Shown one piece after another: positions 44,637 to 60,878 of a stretch of 64,000 nt of DNA (the first letter of the stretch is position 1; each line of letters starts with the position of its first letter). Location of the stretch: contig CAIYHQ010000134.1 of the NCBI GenBank assembly GCA_903926075.1, forward strand, positions 1 through 64,000, in the 5' to 3' direction. This DNA is from an uncultured Methanomicrobiales archaeon. Its GTDB lineage: Archaea > Halobacteriota > Methanomicrobia > Methanomicrobiales > Methanospirillaceae. The position numbers and the translations under genes are program-made. Under the pieces are notes generated by a model, which saw nothing but the letters and a program-made list of their open reading frames with translations, did no database searches and was not told the DNA's origin.

Positions 44637-47600
44637 TTATAACAGTATCACTTTAAGGTCAGGTTTAACCGATTGAAATATTTCGAGGACTGAAGGATGG
44701 CATGTAAAGTAAATTACCTGGTTATTTTTTGAAATATTACTAATTATCTGACACACTTTTTTTAACCGGTTGTGATCAAAGTTAACAAGCGGATCATCAA
44801 ATATAAGGGGGAAATGTTCTCTTTCCCTCTCATATTCTTTAATATATCCAAGCCTTAATGACAGATAGAGTTGTTCAAGAGTCCCCCTGCTGAGTCGGGT
44901 AGCATCAGTCTCTTTGTTCTCCTCATCAATTACACTAAGACCATTGTTTGTAGATGTATTGATTATCTTTATATACCGGTTATCAGTAATTTTTTGAAAT
45001 ATTTGTTCAGCTTCCTTTAAAACTTTCGGTTCATGTTCCATTTCAAAGATATGCATTGCCCTTTTTAAAAGGTTTCTCGCAAATACAATCTTAGACCACT
45101 CTTTTGCAGATTCGTTTAAAGAATCAATTAATTCCTCTCGTTTTTGCCTCAATAAAGGAGCTGTATTCATTCTTTTTAACTCTTCAAGTCCTTTTTCCAT
45201 CCGGCCCCTTTTTTGGTTAAGTTTAGCCGTTTCTTCATGATTGTTTGTAAGAACATCTGATAACTGAAATAACTTTTCGCGGTAAATTGAGAGATCTGCT
45301 GATAAATAAAGGTTTATTAAGTCTTCAATTATCTCTCCTTCCGACAATGTCTTTTCAATATGGGCTTTTGCTAAATTGAGGCGTTCACTATCGAAATTAA
45401 GCCCGTCAATTTCATTTGCTTTTCTTCTAAAATCCTCTTCACTAGTACAATCACAACTAAGAAATAACGATTGAATCTCACTTTCTAAATATTCTTTATC
45501 TTTTTTTATAATGTCAAGTTCAAATTCAAGTGAAGCCAGTTCTTTCGTTTTACTCTTTACCTCATTGGACCTTTCTATATTTTTCTCATATAACCTGGTA
45601 AGTTCCTTCGCGATAAATTCAATCTCTCTCCCCTCAACAACAATTCCACATTTGGACCCGGTTTCTCTTGCATATGCTTCATATTCTGAAATAATGCGTC
45701 CCAGATGATCAATTTCCATTTTTCTTTCTCTAATTATTTCAGTTTTTTCTTTCACTGCTTTTATAAGGCTGAAACTCTCCATAACCCCCAGAGGAGAAAG
45801 ATTTGAAGATAAATGATAAGTTTTTCTCCAATCATTCCACTCATCCATCAAAACTGATCTCTTTAGTTTCAAGTCTTCTATTTCGTTTTCATTCTCCTGA
45901 ATTGAAGAATTACATGTAATAAGATCCTTATTGAGACTGTCTATCTTCATTCTCACTTCATAAACTTGTTTAACTCCTTCAAGTTCTCTCGTATATTTTG
46001 CATAAAGGGATTCCAGTTCGAACGGGTCAGGGTAGTTATCGAGTTTGAAAACCTTTTTTATTGTTATCAGTGACTCCTCGATTCCATCAATCTGCTCTTC
46101 TAAATGAGTATTTTCAGAAACAATTTCCTTAATCTTTCCTTTTTTCTCGCTAGATCTCTTTTCTTTGGTTTTGAGAGTTGTAAAAAAAATATAAACCGCA
46201 TAAAACCCTCCAAAAAGAAAAGAAATAATGGTACAATAAAAAAGAATGGTAAACATGAGATTGTTTTTAGCAGTCAGGCTTAATAGTAGTAAAACCGTCC
46301 CTGCAAAGATAAAAAGAAAAGGTTTCAGATAGGGAAAGTCACGAATATTTTCCTTAACCTTTTCCTGCTGCGCTAATATTTGGATCAATGCAAGATTTGA
46401 CGAAATCTTATCTTTTCGTCTGATATAGTCTGGATATTTAACCCTGAAATTTTCTATCACCTGGATTCTTCGCTTCAATTGAATAATATCTGTTTCTGTG
46501 GTGTTTGCAATCTCATCTGATAATATATGTATCTCGTTTTCAATTTCTGTTTTTTTTCCTTTCAATTTTTCTTTTTCATCAATTTTTTTGTTTAACGACG
46601 CTTCAAGAGCCTGATATTCACGAGATTTTTCACTTACATATTCACGGGTTGGAATTGAAACAGGAATCTTCTCAAAGAGGGAATCTTCCCAACCCTCTCC
46701 AAGTTCTTTGTAAATGGTCTGTAACTGCTCATTTGTGATTATCTGTTTATTGGAAAGGTCATCGTACCTCTTAACATTCTCCTCATACCGCAAAAATCCG
46801 TCCCTGAGTGCAATAATTACAGGGTGAAAATCATTAATAATATTATCAGCGTTAATTTCCGATAATAATGTTTTAGTTGATTCATATTTCTCACTTGTTT
46901 TCTGTAGAACACCTGATAAATTTTCATATTGCGTTTTTTGGCTGTTTAGTTTATCAAGTCCGTTTACTGGAAAAAATGAGTTTTGTATTTTGTGATCAAC
47001 TTGATCTTTTAAATTAATATAATTGGTAATATCACCCCATATTGAGATGATGCGCTCAATATTCTGGATTTCAGTTTCGGTTCCGGCTCTCTCACCTGCA
47101 ATTTCTTTCAGATCTTTATCTGTTTTTTTTAGTTCCAGTTCAATTTTGTCATATCTATCCTGATAGTTGGAGAATGCATTAAGTTCAGTGTCTGTTGATG
47201 CTATCTCTGATAAAATTGAATGAATCTTTTCGGTACGTCCTCTTTCTTTGAAAATAATATCTGCAGTGGAATCAAGTTCCTGATAAATGCTGTTTAAAGA
47301 AATTTTCCCGGTTCCTGTTTCTGCACTTGTAAGGCGTTCACGGATAGCTGAATCATTAAGCCCCTCAAACTGGTGTATATCGTCCAGAGTAAAAAGGTAA
47401 ACTTTCCTGACAACCGAGGAATCACCATCCTTTAAAAATTCTAAGTACTGGTTAAGATCTTTTGTTAATCTATCCTCATGAGGAACGTTTAAGTCAGCAT
47501 CGCCGTTGCAATAACGGGTCAGGAAATATTTTCTGTTATTATCAGAAATAAGAACTCCTTTCGCAAAGGGAAGCTCGCTATCAGTAATACCTTCATCTTT

Positions 47601-47774
47601 CAGGACTGACTTCTTCTTTGGGAGCCCAAACAACATATAGATGATAGAATTGAAAAAAGTTGACTTTCCCGCTTCATTTGGGCCGTAAATAAGTGTTAAT
47701 CCTGGAGAAAGCAAATCTATCTCTTTATTACTAAATCCATGGAATGAGCAGATGCGCAGAGATTCAATCTTCAT
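44637..47774 (-). CDS. YhaN/SbcC-like coiled-coil ATPase with central membrane hairpin
   Basis: A 1045-residue SMC/Rad50-type protein. ATG 47774 follows GAGG by six bases, and a TTG four codons upstream is disfavoured. Head parts: Walker A LIYGPNEAGKSTFF near residues 30-42, signature LSRGTLEQLYLSLRLGY near 965, Walker B FPLIFDDPLVNFD near 1000, and the His switch YFTCHPSVLE. Between them lie two long coiled coils (about 175-460 and 535-930). At about 476-531 two adjacent hydrophobic helices (FLFIFAGTVLLLLSLTA, FTILFYCTIISFLFGGFYA) break the coiled coil, as in the YhaN (AAA_27) branch rather than true Rad50. It overlaps the nuclease gene by 11 bp, so it is the ATPase half of a nuclease complex, possibly held at the membrane. 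Confidence 0.88.
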   Translation of the reverse strand: MKIESLRICSFHGFSNKEIDLLSPGLTLIYGPNEAGKSTFFNSIIYMLFGLPKKKSVLKDEGITDSELPFAKGVLISDNNRKYFLTRYCNGDADLNVPHEDRLTKDLNQYLEFLKDGDSSVVRKVYLFTLDDIHQFEGLNDSAIRERLTSAETGTGKISLNSIYQELDSTADIIFKERGRTEKIHSILSEIASTDTELNAFSNYQDRYDKIELELKKTDKDLKEIAGERAGTETEIQNIERIISIWGDITNYINLKDQVDHKIQNSFFPVNGLDKLNSQKTQYENLSGVLQKTSEKYESTKTLLSEINADNIINDFHPVIIALRDGFLRYEENVKRYDDLSNKQIITNEQLQTIYKELGEGWEDSLFEKIPVSIPTREYVSEKSREYQALEASLNKKIDEKEKLKGKKTEIENEIHILSDEIANTTETDIIQLKRRIQVIENFRVKYPDYIRRKDKISSNLALIQILAQQEKVKENIRDFPYLKPFLFIFAGTVLLLLSLTAKNNLMFTILFYCTIISFLFGGFYAVYIFFTTLKTKEKRSSEKKGKIKEIVSENTHLEEQIDGIEESLITIKKVFKLDNYPDPFELESLYAKYTRELEGVKQVYEVRMKIDSLNKDLITCNSSIQENENEIEDLKLKRSVLMDEWNDWRKTYHLSSNLSPLGVMESFSLIKAVKEKTEIIRERKMEIDHLGRIISEYEAYARETGSKCGIVVEGREIEFIAKELTRLYEKNIERSNEVKSKTKELASLEFELDIIKKDKEYLESEIQSLFLSCDCTSEEDFRRKANEIDGLNFDSERLNLAKAHIEKTLSEGEIIEDLINLYLSADLSIYREKLFQLSDVLTNNHEETAKLNQKRGRMEKGLEELKRMNTAPLLRQKREELIDSLNESAKEWSKIVFARNLLKRAMHIFEMEHEPKVLKEAEQIFQKITDNRYIKIINTSTNNGLSVIDEENKETDATRLSRGTLEQLYLSLRLGYIKEYEREREHFPLIFDDPLVNFDHNRLKKVCQIISNISKNNQVIYFTCHPSVLEIFQSVKPDLKVILL

Positions 47775-49056
47775 CCTGGCCCTCAATAATCAGTCTTGTG
47801 AGAAGGAAATCCAGTGCGTCATCAAGTATCTGTTCGGATTCTTTCTTATCAGGTTTCGTCAAATATCCTGAGGCTTTTGATGAGGTATATAACTTTTTCA
47901 GGTCTTCACTGAATTCGCTAAAAGACGAGGTGTTTTCTTTCAAACTTCTCCAGACTTTTATAATTTCACTTGAGAGGTTATTTTTCCTTTCAAGAGCCAT
48001 TAGGTCCAGATCAACTTTTGTTCGGTCAAAAATTCTGTCAGTCCAGATAAATTTTTTATCATGTTTTTCACTCTCATTCAGTGCTTTGTTTATTTCATGT
48101 ACGGTACCTGGCTTTTTTAATTCATGGCTTAAAATTCCCCTGCCTCTCAGTATCAATGACCAGATTGCCGGGTTATCAAGCCCTTCTTTCTCTTTGGCTT
48201 TAATATTCTGAATATAGGAAAAAAGGTTCTCTATTCGCAGAAAAGGTTCTATCGAGATCTCTTTTTTTCTCCAGCTTATACTTTCAGTCGGATGAAACTG
48301 GTAGGATGACCTGCCCTCTCTTGAGACTTTTATAACAAAGCATCCTTTTTCACCAGTTTCACCCCTTTGCATACCCTGGATATTTCCTGGATAAAGGATG
48401 AGCGGGTTATTGGTGCTTATAAATGTAGTTTTATGGATATGACCCAGAGCCCAGTAGTCATATCCCTTATTTCGCAGGGTATCTATAGTACATGGTGCAA
48501 TAGTCTCGTGCTGCTCTGAAGAGAGTGCTGATGCATGAAGTAATCCAATGGTAAAAGGCCATTCATCTTCCCGTTCAGGAAACTTTGATGCAAGGTCCTC
48601 TTTTTCAAAATGCTTTAAATGAGACCGGCCTATTATTGTAGCTACAGGAGTCCCTTCTTTCTCGAAAAATCGAATTTCAGGTTCTTTTTCACTGAAGACT
48701 ATTGTTTTTTTTGGCCATGAAAGCATATGAGCCCATTCGCCGAACGGGTCATGATTACCAAAGACAATATACGTCCAGATGCCAGCTTTCGATAATTCTT
48801 CCAATCCGTCAATGAATCGAAGCTGGGCTGAAAGGCTTCTGCTGACACTGTTATATATGTCTCCTGCAATAAGAACGAAGTCGACATTTTGGGTTATACA
48901 TGTTTCAATAAGATTCCTATAAGCAAGGAATGTAGATTCCTGAATTATTTCTCTGAAAGGTGTGCTAAGATCATGGATACCAGAAAATGAAGTTTCAAGA
49001 TGGAGGTCTGATGTGTGGACAAATGAAAACGGCACACTCAACCCCTTTCGGTTCAT
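47764..49056 (-). CDS. YhaO/SbcD-like metallophosphoesterase nuclease
   Basis: A 430-residue protein with all calcineurin-like phosphoesterase motifs in order: HTSDLHL (D and H), LIAGDIYN (GD), VFGNHDPFG (GNHD), LLHASAL and ALGHIHK (GHxH); metal-dependent DNA nuclease activity is expected. After residue 270 is a C-terminal region (about 270-430) that should dock to the ATPase. ATG 49056 has only a weak and distant Shine-Dalgarno (GGAG 13 nt away), so an internal GTG at 49035 is a possible start. It is coupled by an 11-bp overlap to the YhaN-like ATPase, in the order nuclease then ATPase seen in yhaO-yhaN of Bacillus. Role: processing of DNA ends or aberrant DNA. Confidence 0.9.
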   Translation of the reverse strand: MNRKGLSVPFSFVHTSDLHLETSFSGIHDLSTPFREIIQESTFLAYRNLIETCITQNVDFVLIAGDIYNSVSRSLSAQLRFIDGLEELSKAGIWTYIVFGNHDPFGEWAHMLSWPKKTIVFSEKEPEIRFFEKEGTPVATIIGRSHLKHFEKEDLASKFPEREDEWPFTIGLLHASALSSEQHETIAPCTIDTLRNKGYDYWALGHIHKTTFISTNNPLILYPGNIQGMQRGETGEKGCFVIKVSREGRSSYQFHPTESISWRKKEISIEPFLRIENLFSYIQNIKAKEKEGLDNPAIWSLILRGRGILSHELKKPGTVHEINKALNESEKHDKKFIWTDRIFDRTKVDLDLMALERKNNLSSEIIKVWRSLKENTSSFSEFSEDLKKLYTSSKASGYLTKPDKKESEQILDDALDFLLTRLIIEGQDED

Positions 49057-52002: not shown

Positions 52003-52099
52003 TTATTTCACCTGTTCTCTGTTTAGGAGTTCTGACATTATTAATCTTATTGGAGGATATTAGTTATGGAGTTATGCAATTCCCAATTACCGTGATGGT

Positions 52100-52108
52100 G
52101 ATATAAAT
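52100..52108 (+). promoter_or_regulatory. Possible TATA box of the ligand-binding/peptidase operon
   Basis: GATATAAAT, about 20 bases before ATG 52124. Spacing is short for a leaderless start, so the assignment is tentative. Confidence 0.35.
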
Positions 52109-52123
52109 CAATACAAAAAAGGT

Positions 52124-54197
52124 ATGGATTATTGGTTTAGCGCTTCTTTTTACCGTAACCATCTGCTGGGCAGGTTATACGATAATTCATTTACATACAC
52201 CTGTCAGGATTGGCGTTCTTCTACCTCTGACAGGTGACGTTGAACTGAAGGAACCACTTGAATGGGCAAAGGATAACATTAACAGGGAGGGAGGTTTAGG
52301 TGGAAGACCGGTTGAACTTGTATACAAGGACACGAGTACCGGGAACACAACCGAACTTGCACAGGAACTTCTTAGAGACAATTCAATCAGGATTGTTATA
52401 GGACCTCCAACAAGTGACGATGTCTATTCTCTTGCGCCGGAATTTAAGAGGCAGCAAAAAATGCTTATAAGTCCGCTTGCAACTTCCGGGGATATTATTC
52501 GGGCGTTTGGGAAGGAAGGCTATTTCTGGCGTACAACACAAGGCGATGTTGCACAGGTGAAAGTGATTGTTTCAATTCTTAAGGAAAAGGGAGGAGAGAA
52601 AATAGCCGTTTTTGCAGAAAACACTACCTATGGAAATACATTTTATGACTGGACCGGTTTCTTTGCTACGGAATATGGTCTTAACATATCATACATACGA
52701 CAGTTCGAACCTGGTTCAATAACACTCAGTAAAGACGTTGCAGATGCTTTAAAAGGAAATCCAGATTATATTATCGCTGCCTGTGGATCATCCGATGCTT
52801 CATGTATCAAAAATGAGGTTGACCATTCAAAAAAACCAACAAAACTCTTCCTTACTGATTCGTCAGCAACACCGAACCTAATAAGCACACTTGGAGCAGC
52901 AGCGGAGGGTCTCGAAGGAACATCGCCGACTGTAGATCCTTCTTCTGGCTTTTCCATCGCTTATCAGGGGAAATTCGGGCATCTGCCAACTGATTTTGCA
53001 GCACCTGCTTATGATGCCGTTCTACTTGCTTCATACACTACCGCTCGACAAGATGCAACCATCATTGAGTCCCAGGCTGATTCTATAAGGCATGTTGTAT
53101 ATGGAAACGGGACACCAGAGGGTTGGGATGCACAGGGTTCACATGAAGCAATCGCAGATATACGCAGAGGTGGGAGCCCTGCCATATCGGGTGCGAGCGG
53201 CCCGCTTGATTATGATATTGAATACGGGGTGGATCCTCTCTTTACTTACTATTCCCACTGGGTTGTCGAGGATGGCGGTTTCAGAACCGTTTCTGTAATT
53301 GCTTCAGCAAAATCCGGGACACCGATTGTAAAAGGTGAATCTGTTGCAAGGTCACGTGCATCTGAAAATTTGATGACGATTCCGAAAACCGGGATAGTAT
53401 CGTATAAACCGGCAGCAAATAAGACTGATTTCCAGGCGGTTATTCTCGGTCCTTCACGTGGCTGGATGAATTACCGGCACCAGTCAGATGCACTCGCAGT
53501 ATACACTCTGCTTCGGGAGAACGGTGTCCCAGACAATAAAATCATCCTTATGCTCTATGATGATGTGCCCTTTACGTCGGAAAACCCGATCAAAGGTGAT
53601 ATCCACAACGTCCTTGCAGGAAAGAATCTTCGTTCAGGAGCCGGAGTTGACTATTCAGGCGAGCAGGTAACACCTTTAACTCTGAAACAGGTTCTGTTAG
53701 GTAATAAAACTAAAACAACTCCGGTTGTCCTTGAAAGTGGTAATAGTACAGACGTTTTTGTGTATATCGCGAGCCATGGAGAACCAGGAGAAATCGATTT
53801 TTCGACGAGGCATAGTACGCTTAGCACGAGTGATTTTAGAGATGTCACAGAGACAATGTACCGTGAGGGAAGGTACCGGCAGATTGTCTTTTTTGTTGAT
53901 ACGTGTTTTGGCGAGAGCATCGGCATAAATGCAACTGTCCCAGGGCTTCTATACTTAACAGCTGCAGCCAAAGACGAGCCTTCGCTAGGGACCACTTATG
54001 ATGCGTCAATCAGGCAGTGGCTTTCGGATGAGTTCACTGAAAGTGTACTTGATACAATCCAGGCTGATCCGGACATTACGTTCCGTGAACTCTATACCGC
54101 CGTATACGAAAAAGTCATTGGTTCTCACGCGAGGATATTGAACACAGAAAATTTTGGGAATATTGATATTCCGGTGAAAGAATTCCTGCAGCCATGA
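52124..54197 (+). CDS. ABC-type ligand-binding domain fused to a C13 (legumain/GPI8-like) peptidase
   Basis: The frame is open from 52107 to 54197. It encodes a membrane segment (WIIGLALLFTVTICWAGYTI), then a type-I periplasmic binding domain of the Leu/Ile/Val kind (VRIGVLLPLTGDVELKEPLE, REGGLGGRPVELVYKD, RIVIGPPTSDDVYSLAPEFK), about residues 35-400. A C13 cysteine-peptidase domain follows, starting GWMNYRHQSDALAVYTLLRE, NGVPDNKIILMLYDDVP, GVDYSGEQVTPLTLKQVLLG. The catalytic His is in VYIASHGEPG (codon 53775) and Cys in FFVDTCFGES (codon 53904). No ATG, GTG or TTG lies in frame before 52461, so the start is uncertain: an ATG at 52124 is one base out of frame, and one G fewer in the GG at 52126-52127 would restore it. 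The stop overlaps the next gene by 4 bp. Probably anchored with both domains outside the cell. Confidence 0.85.
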
Positions 54198-55189
54198 ACG
54201 ATAATCAAATAATCTCAATACTTGCTGTTGCAACTGCAGTGGTCATTGTTATTACTCTGTTCATGATAAATCCAAACACACCGAATCTCCCGGTTATTTA
54301 TATTGTATACGGTTCAGAGAAGGGCGATCTCTCGTATACAGACTGTGCTTACCTGGGCCTTTTTACCGCACAGGAATCAATGCCATTTATCAAGCAGGAA
54401 TTTACATCAATTGACCCAGACCGGTTTTCCGGGTTTTTAAACGGCTCCGGAGAATTAAAGAAACCAGGATTCGTTATTACTGTAGGTTTCCAGTACGCGG
54501 GTGATACGCTGCACTTTTCCCAGGAGCACCCTGAAACCAGGTTTCTTGCGGTCGATGAGGCTGGAATTGGATCAAATAATACGAAGGCATACGAAGTATC
54601 CTCGTATGGTGAGAGCTACCTTGCAGGGGTTCTTGCAGCATCTGCCACAAAAACGAAAAGAGTTGGTATAATTCTTGGAATGCCATCAAGACCACTCGAG
54701 GGGTTCAGGCTCGGATACGAAGCCGGAGTCCGGGCTGCTGACCCATCAGTAGTTCTCGAAGAGGAATATATTGGCAACACAGTTAGTAGTTTTTCTGACC
54801 CAAAAAAAGGAGTTGAGATAGCTGATGCGATGTACCGGAATGGGACCGATATTATCTTTACAGTCGCAGGTTATTCAGGAACTGGCGTTATTAAAGCAGC
54901 AAAAGCAGATTCAGGAAGATACGTTATCGGTGTGGATTCAGACCAGACTTACCTTGGTCCATCAGTTGTCATCGCATCGGCAGTGAAACGGGTAGACCGA
55001 ATCGTCTATTCTGGTACAAATGAATATCTCGAGGGGAGATTTTCAGGTGGGAACGTCACAGGTGGATTGAATGAAGGTGTGACTGGAATTGTGTTCAACC
55101 CAAAATTTGAGGCATATAATGCAACAATAAATGCATGGGAAAAAGAGGCCCGCCAGGCAGAGGAGTGGTATCTGGCTTTACAAAAATAA
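54194..55189 (+). CDS. BMP-family (PnrA/Med-like) ligand-binding protein
   Basis: A 331-residue protein. The N-terminal hydrophobic stretch SILAVATAVVIVITLFMI is a membrane anchor or signal; no lipobox is seen. The rest is a BMP-type periplasmic binding domain: FVITVGFQYAGDTLHFSQEH, RFLAVDEAG, SYLAGVLAASATKTKRVGII, GFRLGYEAGVRAADPS and GTDIIFTVAGYSGTGVIKAA then VIGVDSDQTYLGPSVVIASA. Bacterial relatives bind purine nucleosides or other small molecules for an ABC importer or for sensing, but no permease or ATPase gene is nearby. It overlaps the stop of the ligand-binding/peptidase gene (ATGA), so the two are made together. Possibly a second receptor of the same surface complex. Confidence 0.88.
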   Translation: MNDNQIISILAVATAVVIVITLFMINPNTPNLPVIYIVYGSEKGDLSYTDCAYLGLFTAQESMPFIKQEFTSIDPDRFSGFLNGSGELKKPGFVITVGFQYAGDTLHFSQEHPETRFLAVDEAGIGSNNTKAYEVSSYGESYLAGVLAASATKTKRVGIILGMPSRPLEGFRLGYEAGVRAADPSVVLEEEYIGNTVSSFSDPKKGVEIADAMYRNGTDIIFTVAGYSGTGVIKAAKADSGRYVIGVDSDQTYLGPSVVIASAVKRVDRIVYSGTNEYLEGRFSGGNVTGGLNEGVTGIVFNPKFEAYNATINAWEKEARQAEEWYLALQK

Positions 55190-55207: not shown

Positions 55208-55952
55208 TCATATGTCATTGAACAACGCTTCTGCAGATGGTCCTGCCATACCCGCTTCGCTGTGACCAATAGCTGGGACAATATGATATTCCCACATTAT
55301 GGGGATATGGAGTTTTTCTGCTTGTTTTTGGGCAATATCAAAATAAAATTTTGCCCGTTCAAATCGTGTTTTTCCTTGTGCTTCAGCTGCTGGGAAATTT
55401 GCAAGGCTGGTATCATTTGGATCAATATCTTTTTCACCAGACATGATTATCAGTTTTCTTGCAAAGACGGTTTTTAAATCATTCTCGGTAATGGGAGAAC
55501 CCTGGAGGCCCAAAGGAAACCTGACTGTAAATGTCGGTAACGTCCTTTGCAGTTCCGTTCATATCAAACATGTTGCCACCGGTATACCAGGAATCCCCTG
55601 GGTAATATTCATTGGAGAATTCAGGGGCTATTAAAAGTGTCGAATACTTTTCGCTATACGGGACCCACACATCACGGGAAGCTGACGCATCTCTTCCTGC
55701 ACCATGCATCACTATAAGAACAGGATCAGAAAGGTTCCACGAGGCCGGTCTATAGGTATAGACTGTAATTGGACGGTCAGAGTTCCCTAGTTTATTGATA
55801 AAAACATATTTGCCAGTCCCAACAGGAATTTCAGTTGTTGCTGTCGCTGTAGTTTGAAATTTATTATTCCCGCTGGAAGTCATGGAAGAACATCCACTTG
55901 CAGCAAGGGTTAAGAAGAGAATTAAGTAAACAAAAAAATTGAGAATCTTCAT
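55208..55952 (-). pseudogene. Alpha/beta-hydrolase (esterase) with its central part deleted
   Basis: The upstream frame (55952-55479) has a lipoprotein-like start (MKILNFFVYLILFLTLAASG then CSS) and the first half of an esterase: PVLIVMHGAGRDASASRDVW, STLLIAPEFSNEYYPGDSWY, NMFDMNGTAKDVTD. It then breaks near ATTTACAGTCAGGTTTCC (about 55525-55540), and the remainder (55513-55208) is the C-terminal half in another frame (GLQGSPITENDLKTVFARKL, YHIVPAIGHSEAGMAG, with the catalytic His in GHSEAG). The section with the nucleophile Ser motif (usually GHSAGG) and about 100 residues is absent, so the protein cannot be a normal esterase. An internal deletion plus frame loss explains this. It is the first member of a small group of remnants that ends near 56.5 kb. 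Confidence 0.75.
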
Positions 55953-56730: not shown

Positions 56731-58584
56731 TCATGGTTTAGGTAGCAACCCTGGTTTTAGTGACGGCTGGGGTCCGGGCTTTTGTGTTGGCTGTGGTCCC
56801 GGTGTAGAGGCCTGAATTTGAAATTGGACATCTGTGTTGCTCATAATAGAAAATTGTTTTACTACAACATTCCAATTTCCGCTGTTTGCATTTGTCGGAA
56901 TATTGAAACTACCTTTAATTTTGTCTGAACTCTGGATTGAAACCGAAACTGCTGAAATATCAATTCCATTGCGCTGCAGACTTACCTGGGCATCCTTTGC
57001 AAAGTTCTGGCCTGTAAGTGTGAATAAGGTGGTTGTTCCTACATTACCCGAATTCGGACTGATACTCTTCACAACAGCAGATTTTCCCTGACCGGGTCCG
57101 ATTGGTGTAGAGGTAGATGTTGGCACTGATGTAGTGGATTGAGTGGTTGGTAATGTAGTAGGTTGGGTAGTGAGCTGAGTTGTGGGTGGTGTGGTAGGTT
57201 TGCCAGTCGGCTGAGTGGTTGGTGGTGCGGTGGGTTGAGTAGTAGGTAAAAGTGAGATCAGGCTCTGTATCCATGCCGTGATATCACTCGCATTGTATGT
57301 CCCCAGTCCAAAGAGGAAATTTACAGGAATATTTGCCGGCATGCTGATTGGTTGAGAGTAAAGATAAGCTCCTGAGCAAATCAGACCGCCTAGATTCCTC
57401 ATTGCCACCATCTTCTGTTTTTGGTCACTTGTAAGTGTATTTCCAACATCTGTAAAGTGTGTCGCGTAATAATACGATATCTCACCGTCAAGTTCCCCAT
57501 ACCGTGCTGAAAGTGAACGGATGAGATTCTCATCGATTGTCTCCCCGTTTAATGCACGACGGAGTTCTGTTGAAATTGCCTGTCTTTTTGCTACAATCTC
57601 ATTCAGGTCAGCACGCTGAAGATCAACGAGACCTGTAATCTTTTCCCTTTGCGTATCATCTAATAGAGCGAGGAAAGCTTCTCCTGAATCACCTGTAAGT
57701 GTTGTACTTATGGAATAGTTCGGGTTTCCAATTGCAGGACCATCTTTCATATAGAAAGAACCAAAGTATGTTGCCTGTCGTTCAGGACAGAAATATACAT
57801 CTGCAGTGACGGACCCGGCGTACCAGGCAAACATCTCACTTGCATAGGTTCTCATTGCGACTGAGTTATCCTGACCGCTGTTTTTCAGGACGTCTGACAC
57901 ATCTACTACCGGCCAGTTCAGCATACCCTCTGAGGCCATCTTGTCCAGATATGCTCTCTGTGTTGTATTGAATGACCGGATTACACTTGCATATGTTTTT
58001 GTCCGGGCTATGCTTATACTTGCATCAACGTCATACAATTTTGCTGAATAGTTCATAACAGCAGATTTATCGAGCCCGCTGCTTCCTGAAGGAGCACTTC
58101 CTGAAAGTTGTGTGCGGAATGCATTCATTAATGGGAATCGCATATACGCATACTGGCTGGATAATGGTGCTTCTGCGTTAGAGAGAGCTATAAACTGGGC
58201 TAACTGGTCGCTATTCATTATATACAGGACATTGTCTGCAACACGGGTGACAAAATCAGTATTGTGACCCATCTGTGTTGCATCATTGTCACGGAGATAC
58301 TGGAAACCTGCATAATCGGCTACTTTCCCGGGTGGTATGAAAGTGTCGCTGCATGCATCTCCTGAAATAAATGCCAGAGCGTCAAACGCTATGGTATCCC
58401 TCTGGGCCTGGTCTGAAATGGTCTGCTCGATGGTGTATTGCTGCGTTACACCTGCACCCTGAGGTGGACGATTTCCACCCGGCGCAATCGTTCCGGATGC
58501 ATCTGCTGCACTGACCGCTACTGCCAAAAGTGCAAGGAGACAGAATGCGGTAAAAATATAACCCCACGTTCGTGATATTTTCAT
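56731..58584 (-). CDS. Large secreted protein with N-terminal helical domain, Thr/Pro linker and IPT/TIG-like domain (paralog A)
   Basis: About 617 residues from ATG 58584, which has GGTGA seven bases upstream; the frame extends to TTG 58605 but the extra seven residues precede the signal peptide (WGYIFTAFCLLALLAVAVSA). Residues 35-440 form a mostly helical domain shared with the neighbour (YTIEQTISDQAQRDTIAFDA, CSDTFIPPGKVADYAGFQYL, MRTYASEMFAWYAGS). A Thr/Pro/Gln linker (about 445-501) and a beta domain of the IPT/TIG type (about 508-578, VKSISPNSGNVGTTTLFTLT) follow, then a Pro-rich tail. I do not recognise the helical domain. Exported, probably held by the IPT-like module in the cell envelope. 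Upstream it has the shared TTGGG-type promoter. Confidence 0.8.
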   Translation of the reverse strand: MKISRTWGYIFTAFCLLALLAVAVSAADASGTIAPGGNRPPQGAGVTQQYTIEQTISDQAQRDTIAFDALAFISGDACSDTFIPPGKVADYAGFQYLRDNDATQMGHNTDFVTRVADNVLYIMNSDQLAQFIALSNAEAPLSSQYAYMRFPLMNAFRTQLSGSAPSGSSGLDKSAVMNYSAKLYDVDASISIARTKTYASVIRSFNTTQRAYLDKMASEGMLNWPVVDVSDVLKNSGQDNSVAMRTYASEMFAWYAGSVTADVYFCPERQATYFGSFYMKDGPAIGNPNYSISTTLTGDSGEAFLALLDDTQREKITGLVDLQRADLNEIVAKRQAISTELRRALNGETIDENLIRSLSARYGELDGEISYYYATHFTDVGNTLTSDQKQKMVAMRNLGGLICSGAYLYSQPISMPANIPVNFLFGLGTYNASDITAWIQSLISLLPTTQPTAPPTTQPTGKPTTPPTTQLTTQPTTLPTTQSTTSVPTSTSTPIGPGQGKSAVVKSISPNSGNVGTTTLFTLTGQNFAKDAQVSLQRNGIDISAVSVSIQSSDKIKGSFNIPTNANSGNWNVVVKQFSIMSNTDVQFQIQASTPGPQPTQKPGPQPSLKPGLLPKP

Positions 58585-58643
58585 AAAGAAATCACCTTTT
58601 TTCAAGTCCCATTGTAGGACAAACTATCAGTTAATCGCGAAAA

Positions 58644-58699
58644 GGGATAATAAAATGCCAGAGTCTATTCCAGATTACACCCAAATCTTACCCCAATCC
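58644..58699 (-). promoter_or_regulatory. TTGGG-box promoter A
   Basis: On the minus strand TTGGGGTAAGATTTGGGTG (58678-58696) lies about 28 bp upstream of a TATA element GCATTTTATTATCC at 58645-58658. The layout recurs at 60941-60993 and 63523-63575. Confidence 0.6.
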
Positions 58700-58832
58700 A
58701 ATACAAATTTATTTGATTTAAGATTTAGAAAAATTTTATTTTAATATTGGGACTGGGAGGAAAAAATGCAATGATTTGAAGGATGATATAGTACAATCAA
58801 TTTTGATTGTTCCTGCTTATTCCTTGCTTTTA

Positions 58833-60878
58833 TTATGCCAGAACCGATGTATTCTGAGTATCTCCAAATTTATCATTACAAGCGGTTCTGCAATACCTGT
58901 AATCTCCGCATTGCAATCCAATTGAATTTTCGCAGCACACTTTACATTCATTGGAACTGCCTTTTTCAACACACACTGAATAGTCACCGTCAGGGCCCAA
59001 GACCGAAGGAGCCGAAACAGTAATGAAATTTGAATTTTTGCTGAAATCGTGAATTGCGCAAGTATCTCTGCACATTGTCCTCGCTTTACTATCAGCACCA
59101 ATTAAGCAGTCACAACAATCCTTGCATTCTGGATTGTCTTTTGTATTATTGATACAGACTCCTTGATCCTTGATAGTAGGGGTTGTTTGAGATTTGATAC
59201 TGGTTGTAACCGGTTTAGTACTAGCCGGATCCTGTCCTTGCCCCTGGTCTCTTGACGGGGCACATGCGAGTACTCCTGGCTTATCATCGCAAGTACCAGT
59301 TACATTACCTTGTCTATCGTTAAATTGACATTTATCGCCAACTTTTTTCCCCTTACATGATAAAATTGCTTCAGTCGGGGGCTGGTTATGAGACACTTGT
59401 GAACCAGTATTTTGTGTGACCTGTGTCTTTTGAGTCTGTGTGGGCCGTTGTAACCCTGAACTTATAGTTGAAGGGATATTGGTAATCCTTTTAATAATAT
59501 TTGTAATTGTAGTTGTTAATGATGGTTGAACCGGCGGCTTCAATGTTGGCCCGTTAGTGGGCAATAGGGTTTGAAGGCTTTGTAGCCATGCAGATACTTT
59601 GCTCGCACTATACTTCCCTACACCAAACAGAAAGTCAGAGGGAACATTCGGTGGCATACTAATCGGCTGGGAGTACAGATAAGCTCCTGAGCAAATTAAA
59701 CCTCCAAGATCCCTCAGTGAATGGGTCTTCTGTTTCTGATCACTTGTAAGTGAATTTTTAACATCTGTAAAGTGTGTTGCGTAATAATACGAAATTTCAC
59801 CATCAAGTTCTCCATACCGTGCTGAAAGTGAACGGACCAGGTTTTCATCGATGTTTTCACCGTTTAACGCACGACGGAGTTCAGTTGCAATTGCCTGTCT
59901 CTTTGCTACTATTTCATTTAAGTCAGAACGCTGAAGATCAACGAGACCTGTAATCTTTTCCCTTTGCGTGTCATTTAAGAGAGCAAGGAACGATTCTCCT
60001 GAATCACCTGTCAGTGTCGTACTTATGGAATAATCCATGTTTCCAATTGCCGGACCGTCTTTCATGTAGAAAGAACCAAAGTAAGTTGCCTGCCGTTCAG
60101 GACAGAAATAAACATCTGACGCAACAGAGCCCTTATACCATGCGAACATTTCGCTTGCATAAGTCCTCATGGCGACTGAGTTGTCCTGACCGCTGTTTTT
60201 CAGGACGTCTGACACATCTACTACCGGCCAGTTCTGCATACCCTCTGAGGTCATCTTGTCCAGGTATGCTTTCTGTGTTGTATTCAATGACCTGATTACA
60301 GTTGCATATGTTTTTGCCCTATCTATGCTTATACTTGCATCAACATCATAAAGTTGTGCCGAATAGTTCATAACCGCAGATTTATCGAGTACACTGCTTC
60401 CTGCAGGTAACGTCTCATCGAGGTTCGTGCGGAATGCATTCATTAATGGAAACCGCATATAAGCGTACTGGCTGGATAATGGTGCTTCTGCCTTTGAAAG
60501 AGCCATAAACTGTGCGAGTTGGTCACTGTTCAAAATATACAGTACATTATCAGCTGCACGGGTTACAAAATCCGTATTGTGACCCATCTGTGTTGCATCA
60601 TTATCACGCAGGTACTGGAAACCAGCATAATCTGCAACTTTACCTGGTGGGAGGAAGGTGTCACTGCACGCATCTCCGGTAAGGAAAGCGAGAGCGTCAA
60701 ATGCTATGGTATCCCTTTGTGCCTGGTCTGAAATGGTCTGTTCAATATTATACTGCCCGTTATTATTTCCAACCGGGCCAGACGTACCTCCCATGTTGGC
60801 AGTACTAATCGCCACTGCAATAAGTGTCACGATGCAGAACGCGGCCAATATAAATCTTAATTCCCTTAATCGTTTCAT
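58833..60878 (-). CDS. Large secreted protein with the same helical domain and a Cys-rich C-terminus (paralog B)
   Basis: A 681-residue protein from ATG 60878, with GGTGA seven bases upstream and a signal peptide (LRFILAAFCIVTLIAVAIST). Residues 30-440 repeat the helical domain of paralog A at high identity at both protein and DNA level, e.g. QTISDQAQRDTIAFDALAFL, DACSDTFLPPGKVADYAGFQ, KTYATVIRSLNTTQKAYLDK. The C-terminal third differs: a Thr/Gln linker and about 18 Cys in two clusters (LSCKGKKVGDKCQFNDRQGN; ECKDCCDCLIGADSKARTMC; CVEKGSSNECKVCCENSIGL). The duplication has therefore swapped the exposed C-terminal module. No enzyme motif is seen. Confidence 0.8.
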   Translation of the reverse strand: MKRLRELRFILAAFCIVTLIAVAISTANMGGTSGPVGNNNGQYNIEQTISDQAQRDTIAFDALAFLTGDACSDTFLPPGKVADYAGFQYLRDNDATQMGHNTDFVTRAADNVLYILNSDQLAQFMALSKAEAPLSSQYAYMRFPLMNAFRTNLDETLPAGSSVLDKSAVMNYSAQLYDVDASISIDRAKTYATVIRSLNTTQKAYLDKMTSEGMQNWPVVDVSDVLKNSGQDNSVAMRTYASEMFAWYKGSVASDVYFCPERQATYFGSFYMKDGPAIGNMDYSISTTLTGDSGESFLALLNDTQREKITGLVDLQRSDLNEIVAKRQAIATELRRALNGENIDENLVRSLSARYGELDGEISYYYATHFTDVKNSLTSDQKQKTHSLRDLGGLICSGAYLYSQPISMPPNVPSDFLFGVGKYSASKVSAWLQSLQTLLPTNGPTLKPPVQPSLTTTITNIIKRITNIPSTISSGLQRPTQTQKTQVTQNTGSQVSHNQPPTEAILSCKGKKVGDKCQFNDRQGNVTGTCDDKPGVLACAPSRDQGQGQDPASTKPVTTSIKSQTTPTIKDQGVCINNTKDNPECKDCCDCLIGADSKARTMCRDTCAIHDFSKNSNFITVSAPSVLGPDGDYSVCVEKGSSNECKVCCENSIGLQCGDYRYCRTACNDKFGDTQNTSVLA

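Follow-up and report, generated by a model that had tools for sequence, protein, structure and literature searches.

A type I binding protein fused to a legumain-like peptidase and paired with a BMP-type binding protein in archaea and bacteria

Two overlapping genes of an uncultured Methanomicrobiales archaeon, located in the window (the whole stretch of 64,000 nucleotides that was analysed), encode what we propose, with a probability of about 0.6, to be a surface-anchored module of two receptors, one of them coupled to a legumain-type endopeptidase, in which ligand binding would control cleavage after Asn or Asp. According to this proposal, the amino-acid-type receptor domain of the first protein is rigidly coupled to the cysteine endopeptidase, and the second protein, a nucleoside-type (BMP) receptor, would most likely assemble with that receptor domain. 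A ligand bound to one or both receptor domains would then control the cleavage of surface substrates; such ligand control, like the formation of the heteromer, is plausible. The features of the locus are the following, all on the forward strand.

52097..52102, +, GGTGAT, Shine-Dalgarno-like site, 5 nt (counted from GGTGA) ahead of the ATC at 52107
52107..54197, +, gene 1, membrane-anchored type I binding protein with C13 peptidase (Pfam; AF2)
52113..52196, +, N-terminal hydrophobic helix of gene 1, residues 3-30 (AF2 model, comparison of N-termini, lipobox count)
52200..53336, +, type I periplasmic-binding (HAAT/LivK-like) domain of gene 1, about residues 32-410 (Pfam, PDB matches, Foldseek, pocket conservation)
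53427..54182, +, C13 legumain-like peptidase domain of gene 1, about residues 441-692 (PF01650; phmmer; Foldseek)
53469..53471, +, Asn455, equivalent to legumain Asn42, with Arg457/His458 equivalent to Arg44/His45 (invariant, 67/67)
53775..53777, +, catalytic His557, equivalent to legumain His148 (invariant, 67/67)
53904..53906, +, catalytic Cys600, equivalent to legumain Cys189 (invariant, 67/67)
54194..54197, +, ATGA, stop of gene 1 and start of gene 2, 4 bp overlap (sequence; paralogous pair alike)
54194..55189, +, gene 2, BMP/PnrA-type binding protein with an N-terminal membrane helix, residues 3-24 (PF02608; AF2; Foldseek)

The gene 1 frame (52107-54197) holds 696 open codons and a stop. 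Pfam placed Peripla_BP_6 at residues 32-307 (1.8e-26) and Peptidase_C13 (PF01650) at residues 444-677 (3.4e-50, 171.4 bits for a cut-off of 22.8) within this single frame, so that the fusion of a receptor to a C13 peptidase, as announced by the original prediction, was borne out. The C13 motifs NYRHQ, SHGEPG and VDTCFGES stand at residues 455, 556 and 597. Structure prediction, which had been suggested as a check, gave a confident two-domain AF2 model of the whole fusion (pLDDT 94.4, pTM 0.91), and Foldseek matched the receptor domain to LivK 3td9 and 4mlc. Gene 2 encodes a Bmp protein (PF02608, 6.3e-47; AF2 pLDDT 94.7) with fold matches to BmpD 6shu and PnrA 2fqw. It shares with these nucleoside-binding proteins the fold and the GD..Y.D and D.DQ motifs, but its partner is the protease-receptor gene, whereas theirs is an ABC transporter. 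A paralogous pair with the same gene order and the same 4 bp overlap was found elsewhere in the window genome (G000:C35), and the arrangement is therefore not an accident of this locus. In terms of families, the two proteins belong to Peripla_BP_6, C13 and BMP; they lack the LSAM of a legumain zymogen, and they are unlikely to be a GPI transamidase or components of an ABC importer.

The predicted gene coordinates held for the extent of the gene 1 frame, while the start at 52107 has to be qualified. The frame opens directly after a TAA (52104-52106), its first codon is ATC, and no ATG, GTG or TTG occurs in it before 52461, which is already inside the receptor domain; 52107 is thus either a non-AUG start or the edge of the open frame. 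The arrangement GGTG(A), 5 or 6 nt, AT[CTA] was present in 18 of the 20 listed relatives of the clade (an additional row was a duplicate), the codon after the Shine-Dalgarno-like site being ATC, ATT or ATA. The start region lacks ATG, GTG and TTG in the window and in two relatives (L033 and L035); other clade members have an in-frame GTG within the site. In those few window genes whose Shine-Dalgarno site is clear, the spacing was 6-7 nt, to which the fit of gene 1 is good, if inexact. Judging from the conserved arrangement, it is possible that gene 1 has a conserved AUC/AUU/AUA start codon; a nonsense change or an assembly error in the window copy is a possible alternative.

The active site of the peptidase is intact. 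Equivalents of legumain Asn42, Arg44, His45, His148 and Cys189 were invariant in 33/33 sequences of the order and in 67/67 sequences of archaea and bacteria. Loss of the catalytic His or Cys among homologues, looked for in both sets, was seen in neither, in agreement with the original prediction that both catalytic residues are present. The S1 pocket of the window protein is also intact and consists of R457, D598 and D641 (legumain Arg44, Glu187 and Asp231); across the 67 sequences, the residue at the Glu187 position is always E or D, and at the Asp231 position 36 have D and 31 have N. In the PDB, the sequence closest to the C13 domain was human legumain (phmmer, 8.9e-35), with GPI8 behind (7e-28), and superposition of the AF2 model on active legumain 4awb by Foldseek gave a TMt of 0.92 and an rmsd of 1.7; GPI8 chains were also among the sequence and fold matches. 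The likeness to legumain (MEROPS C13) thus covers the catalytic core fold, Asn42/His148/Cys189 and the Arg44, Glu/Asp187 and Asp231 equivalents. Legumain, however, has a C-terminal LSAM prodomain, whereas the gene 1 protein ends at residue 696, just past the catalytic core; moreover, unlike legumain, the gene 1 family has an N-terminal receptor domain, a partner receptor, and Asn in place of Asp231 in nearly half of its members. That the C13 domain is an active enzyme, predicted to cleave after Asn or Asp, is well supported.

Both proteins are placed outside the membrane by their N-termini. In archaeal members, a membrane helix at the N-terminus (residues 3-30 in gene 1) acts as a signal anchor; most bacterial relatives have a lipobox in its place: in the Bacteroidota and Treponema set, 29/40 fusions and 27/40 BMPs had one. 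In the same two groups, the gene preceding the pair on the same strand encoded a lipoprotein in 14 cases out of 24, compared to 14/82 for distant ORFs. These upstream lipoproteins belong to different families in each clade, MACPF-domain proteins included, and we infer that they are candidate substrates or partners. A cluster of MACPF (perforin-like) lipoproteins, c9, lies beside the BMP/C13 pair in Bacteroidales and Treponema (L175, L176, L151, L167 and L179).

When the fusion was sought in related genomes, it was found within Methanomicrobiales and far beyond. In the order, a strong C13 match (E < 1e-40) was found in 30 genomes, almost always in an open frame of about 670-760 codons; the short C13 frames were contig-edge or broken copies, and in one genome (G158) a version of 394 codons lacked the main receptor part. 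No other C13 of legumain strength was found in a phylum-wide sample. A scan of named genomes returned 181 related stretches, from which 79 loci were kept, belonging to Bacteroidota, Treponema, Myxococcota and other deltaproteobacteria, Actinomycetota, Methanocalculus and Methanospirillum; altogether, full-length fusions were present in Methanomicrobiales, Bacteroidota, Treponema, Myxococcota/deltaproteobacteria and Actinomycetota. Among Bacteroidales, such a C13 was found in 6 of the 295 genomes sampled, always in a frame of 700-782 codons. The tree gave no clear single transfer route. Bins such as those labelled ‘Coriobacteriaceae’ (L111) and ‘Patescibacteria’ (L113) grouped with archaea and may be misbinned. 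One fusion was frameshifted (L049, genome G191).

The partnership of the fusion with a BMP protein, also part of the original prediction, proved to be conserved beyond Methanomicrobiales. Among the 76 full-length fusions of named genomes, 54 had a directly adjoining, co-directional BMP gene, which was upstream in 44 (most bacteria) and downstream in 10 (archaea). Sixteen fusions with both flanks in hand had no adjoining BMP, and 6 further ones were at a contig edge; in four fusion genomes (G126, G127, G132 and G157), no BMP homologue was found. Distances between BMPs and between fusions were correlated (Mantel r 0.92 for 42 pairs, permutation maximum 0.20), to which shared species ancestry contributes; the correlation within Bacteroidota and Treponema was 0.91.

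Departures from this arrangement were of two main types. In about 20 archaeal genomes, the family's Peripla_BP_6-like domain and a BMP domain are joined in one chain of ∼735-855 codons without C13 (in the order, for instance, L058-L064 and L071). At the six loci examined of the Methanospirillum stamsii type (L065-L070, genera g13 and g3), a second Peripla_BP_6 protein after the fusion replaces the BMP. What these arrangements share is a pair of type I binding domains, one of which carries the protease. The remains of a BMP pseudogene, including a stop, were seen immediately downstream of one fusion (G181:C5:46205-46390). In L189 and L190 (genomes G044 and G031), the Peripla_BP_6 and BMP genes are separate and at most a few kb apart, the adjacent genes in L190 matching Nramp-like and SNF (sodium symporter) families, not ABC parts. 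Unlinked BMP genes of the order mostly had no conserved partner; one of them (L183) adjoins a gene with an ABC-signature motif.

Both receptor folds are those of amino-acid and nucleoside binding proteins, for which membrane or lipoprotein anchoring is usual, and the pair could accordingly serve a secreted scavenging protease: C13 would degrade external protein, and the receptors would capture amino acids and nucleosides for unlinked transporters. Binding proteins of the two classes (HAAT and BMP) work with BPD_transp_2 permeases. The original prediction had noted the lack of a nearby transporter, and indeed no ABC permease or transporter ATPase was found among the window genes from 44.6 to 60.9 kb. 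BPD_transp_2 (PF02653) was moreover absent from 14 of the 30 fusion-bearing genomes, including the single-contig G192, G193 and G201, with a weak match in 3 more, and for this reason the fusion and BMP proteins are probably not parts of ABC importers. In the window genome, a single permease pair is encoded on a different contig (C42), so that the argument there rests on distance and on the relatives. Scavenging would have no need, either, for a rigid two-domain fold and a strictly co-inherited second receptor, and we regard it as clearly unlikely. Compared to the HAAT/LivK amino-acid binding proteins (3td9, 4mlc and 4nqr), the gene 1 receptor has the same fold and amino-acid pocket positions, but it is fused to a protease, and a permease is absent nearby and often genome-wide. 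A different reading is that the receptor domains have ceased to bind small molecules and now only provide the protease with a scaffold or a docking site for substrates. Type I binding folds can dock proteins, as in LpoA, and the BMPs of Bacteroidota have strongly diverged (about 15-20% identity), because of which their ligand may differ or be lost. Both binding pockets nevertheless look intact at the level of sequence. Receptor residues S103, T126, Y175 and D251 correspond to LIVBP Ser79, Thr102, Tyr150 and Glu226 in our own motif alignment, on which the mapping rests, LIVBP itself being a weak match. Among the 67 sequences, 59 keep S103 (4 more having T), 64 have T or S at 126, 60 keep Y175 and 63 keep D251, which suggests an alpha-amino acid as the ligand; in the BMP proteins, conservation is 90% or more at Asp45, Asp250 and Ser262. 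Loss of binding in both receptors is thus fairly unlikely.

C13 enzymes include GPI8 and the plant asparaginyl ligases, and a ligase or transpeptidase that, like the GPI transamidase, anchors proteins at the cell surface, as the original prediction had envisaged, would suit both the GPI8 matches and the enrichment of surface lipoproteins beside the bacterial pair. GPI8/PIGK (7wld, 8imx) and the gene 1 protein have peptidase family, membrane anchoring and catalytic residues in common. However, the C13 domain is nearer legumain than GPI8 in sequence and fold, GPI8 has a C-terminal TM whereas the gene 1 chain has the N-terminal anchor only and ends with the peptidase domain, and its peptidase, unlike that of GPI8, is fused to a receptor domain. 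The lipoboxes of the neighbouring bacterial lipoproteins are of the ordinary kind, and no hydrophobic C-terminal signal was present in the two tails that were read (c3 and c4 in L146). Models of GPI16/PIG-T and GAA1 had no match in the window genome, although the control genomes were likewise without a match. Anchoring of the GPI-transamidase type is unsupported, and we consider a ligase role in it very improbable; a transpeptidase activity as such is conceivable. A ligand-controlled legumain-type endopeptidase, coupled to two receptors, is the reading that we retain.

A broader and more tentative idea, which we hold somewhat doubtful, is that of an undescribed class of prokaryotic receptors, in archaea and several bacterial phyla, where an amino-acid-type and a nucleoside-type domain pair and switch on an asparaginyl protease or ligase, the variable neighbouring surface proteins being its substrates. 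The two type I domains would pair as the ligand-binding halves of eukaryotic dimeric receptors do. The open-access titles and abstracts searched contained no description of a fusion between a C13 peptidase and a binding protein, or of a C13 peptidase accompanied by a BMP. If the idea is true, the output of a prokaryotic receptor would be extracellular proteolysis, rather than transport, phosphorylation or transcription; type I binding domains would be linked to the legumain/GPI-transamidase enzyme family, and there would be a route to the role of prokaryotic C13 peptidases. Among the bearers, Methanospirillum, Methanocalculus and Plesiocystis are culturable, which opens the archaeal and the bacterial versions to direct tests.

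Two other settings for the pair were considered and set aside. The pair is unlikely to belong to a mobile or defence system: PADLOC returned nothing for either protein, no phage match was obtained for C13, and no plasmid matched the fusion over its full length. A kinase-coupled system was dropped as well; histidine kinases lie near some archaeal copies, but no conserved linkage was seen. In the window, the neighbours of the pair encode an SMC-like ATPase (SMC/AAA_27-like, 44637-47786), a phosphoesterase, a flavodoxin, an amidohydrolase and secreted proteins. A secreted hydrolase-like gene on the reverse strand (55208-55952) is made of two overlapping frames (55208-55513 and 55479-55952), possibly as the result of a frameshift. 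Further on, also on the reverse strand, two adjacent and closely similar secreted proteins of 624 and 681 aa (56731-60878) differ in their C-terminal tails, one having a TIG domain and the other being Cys-rich.
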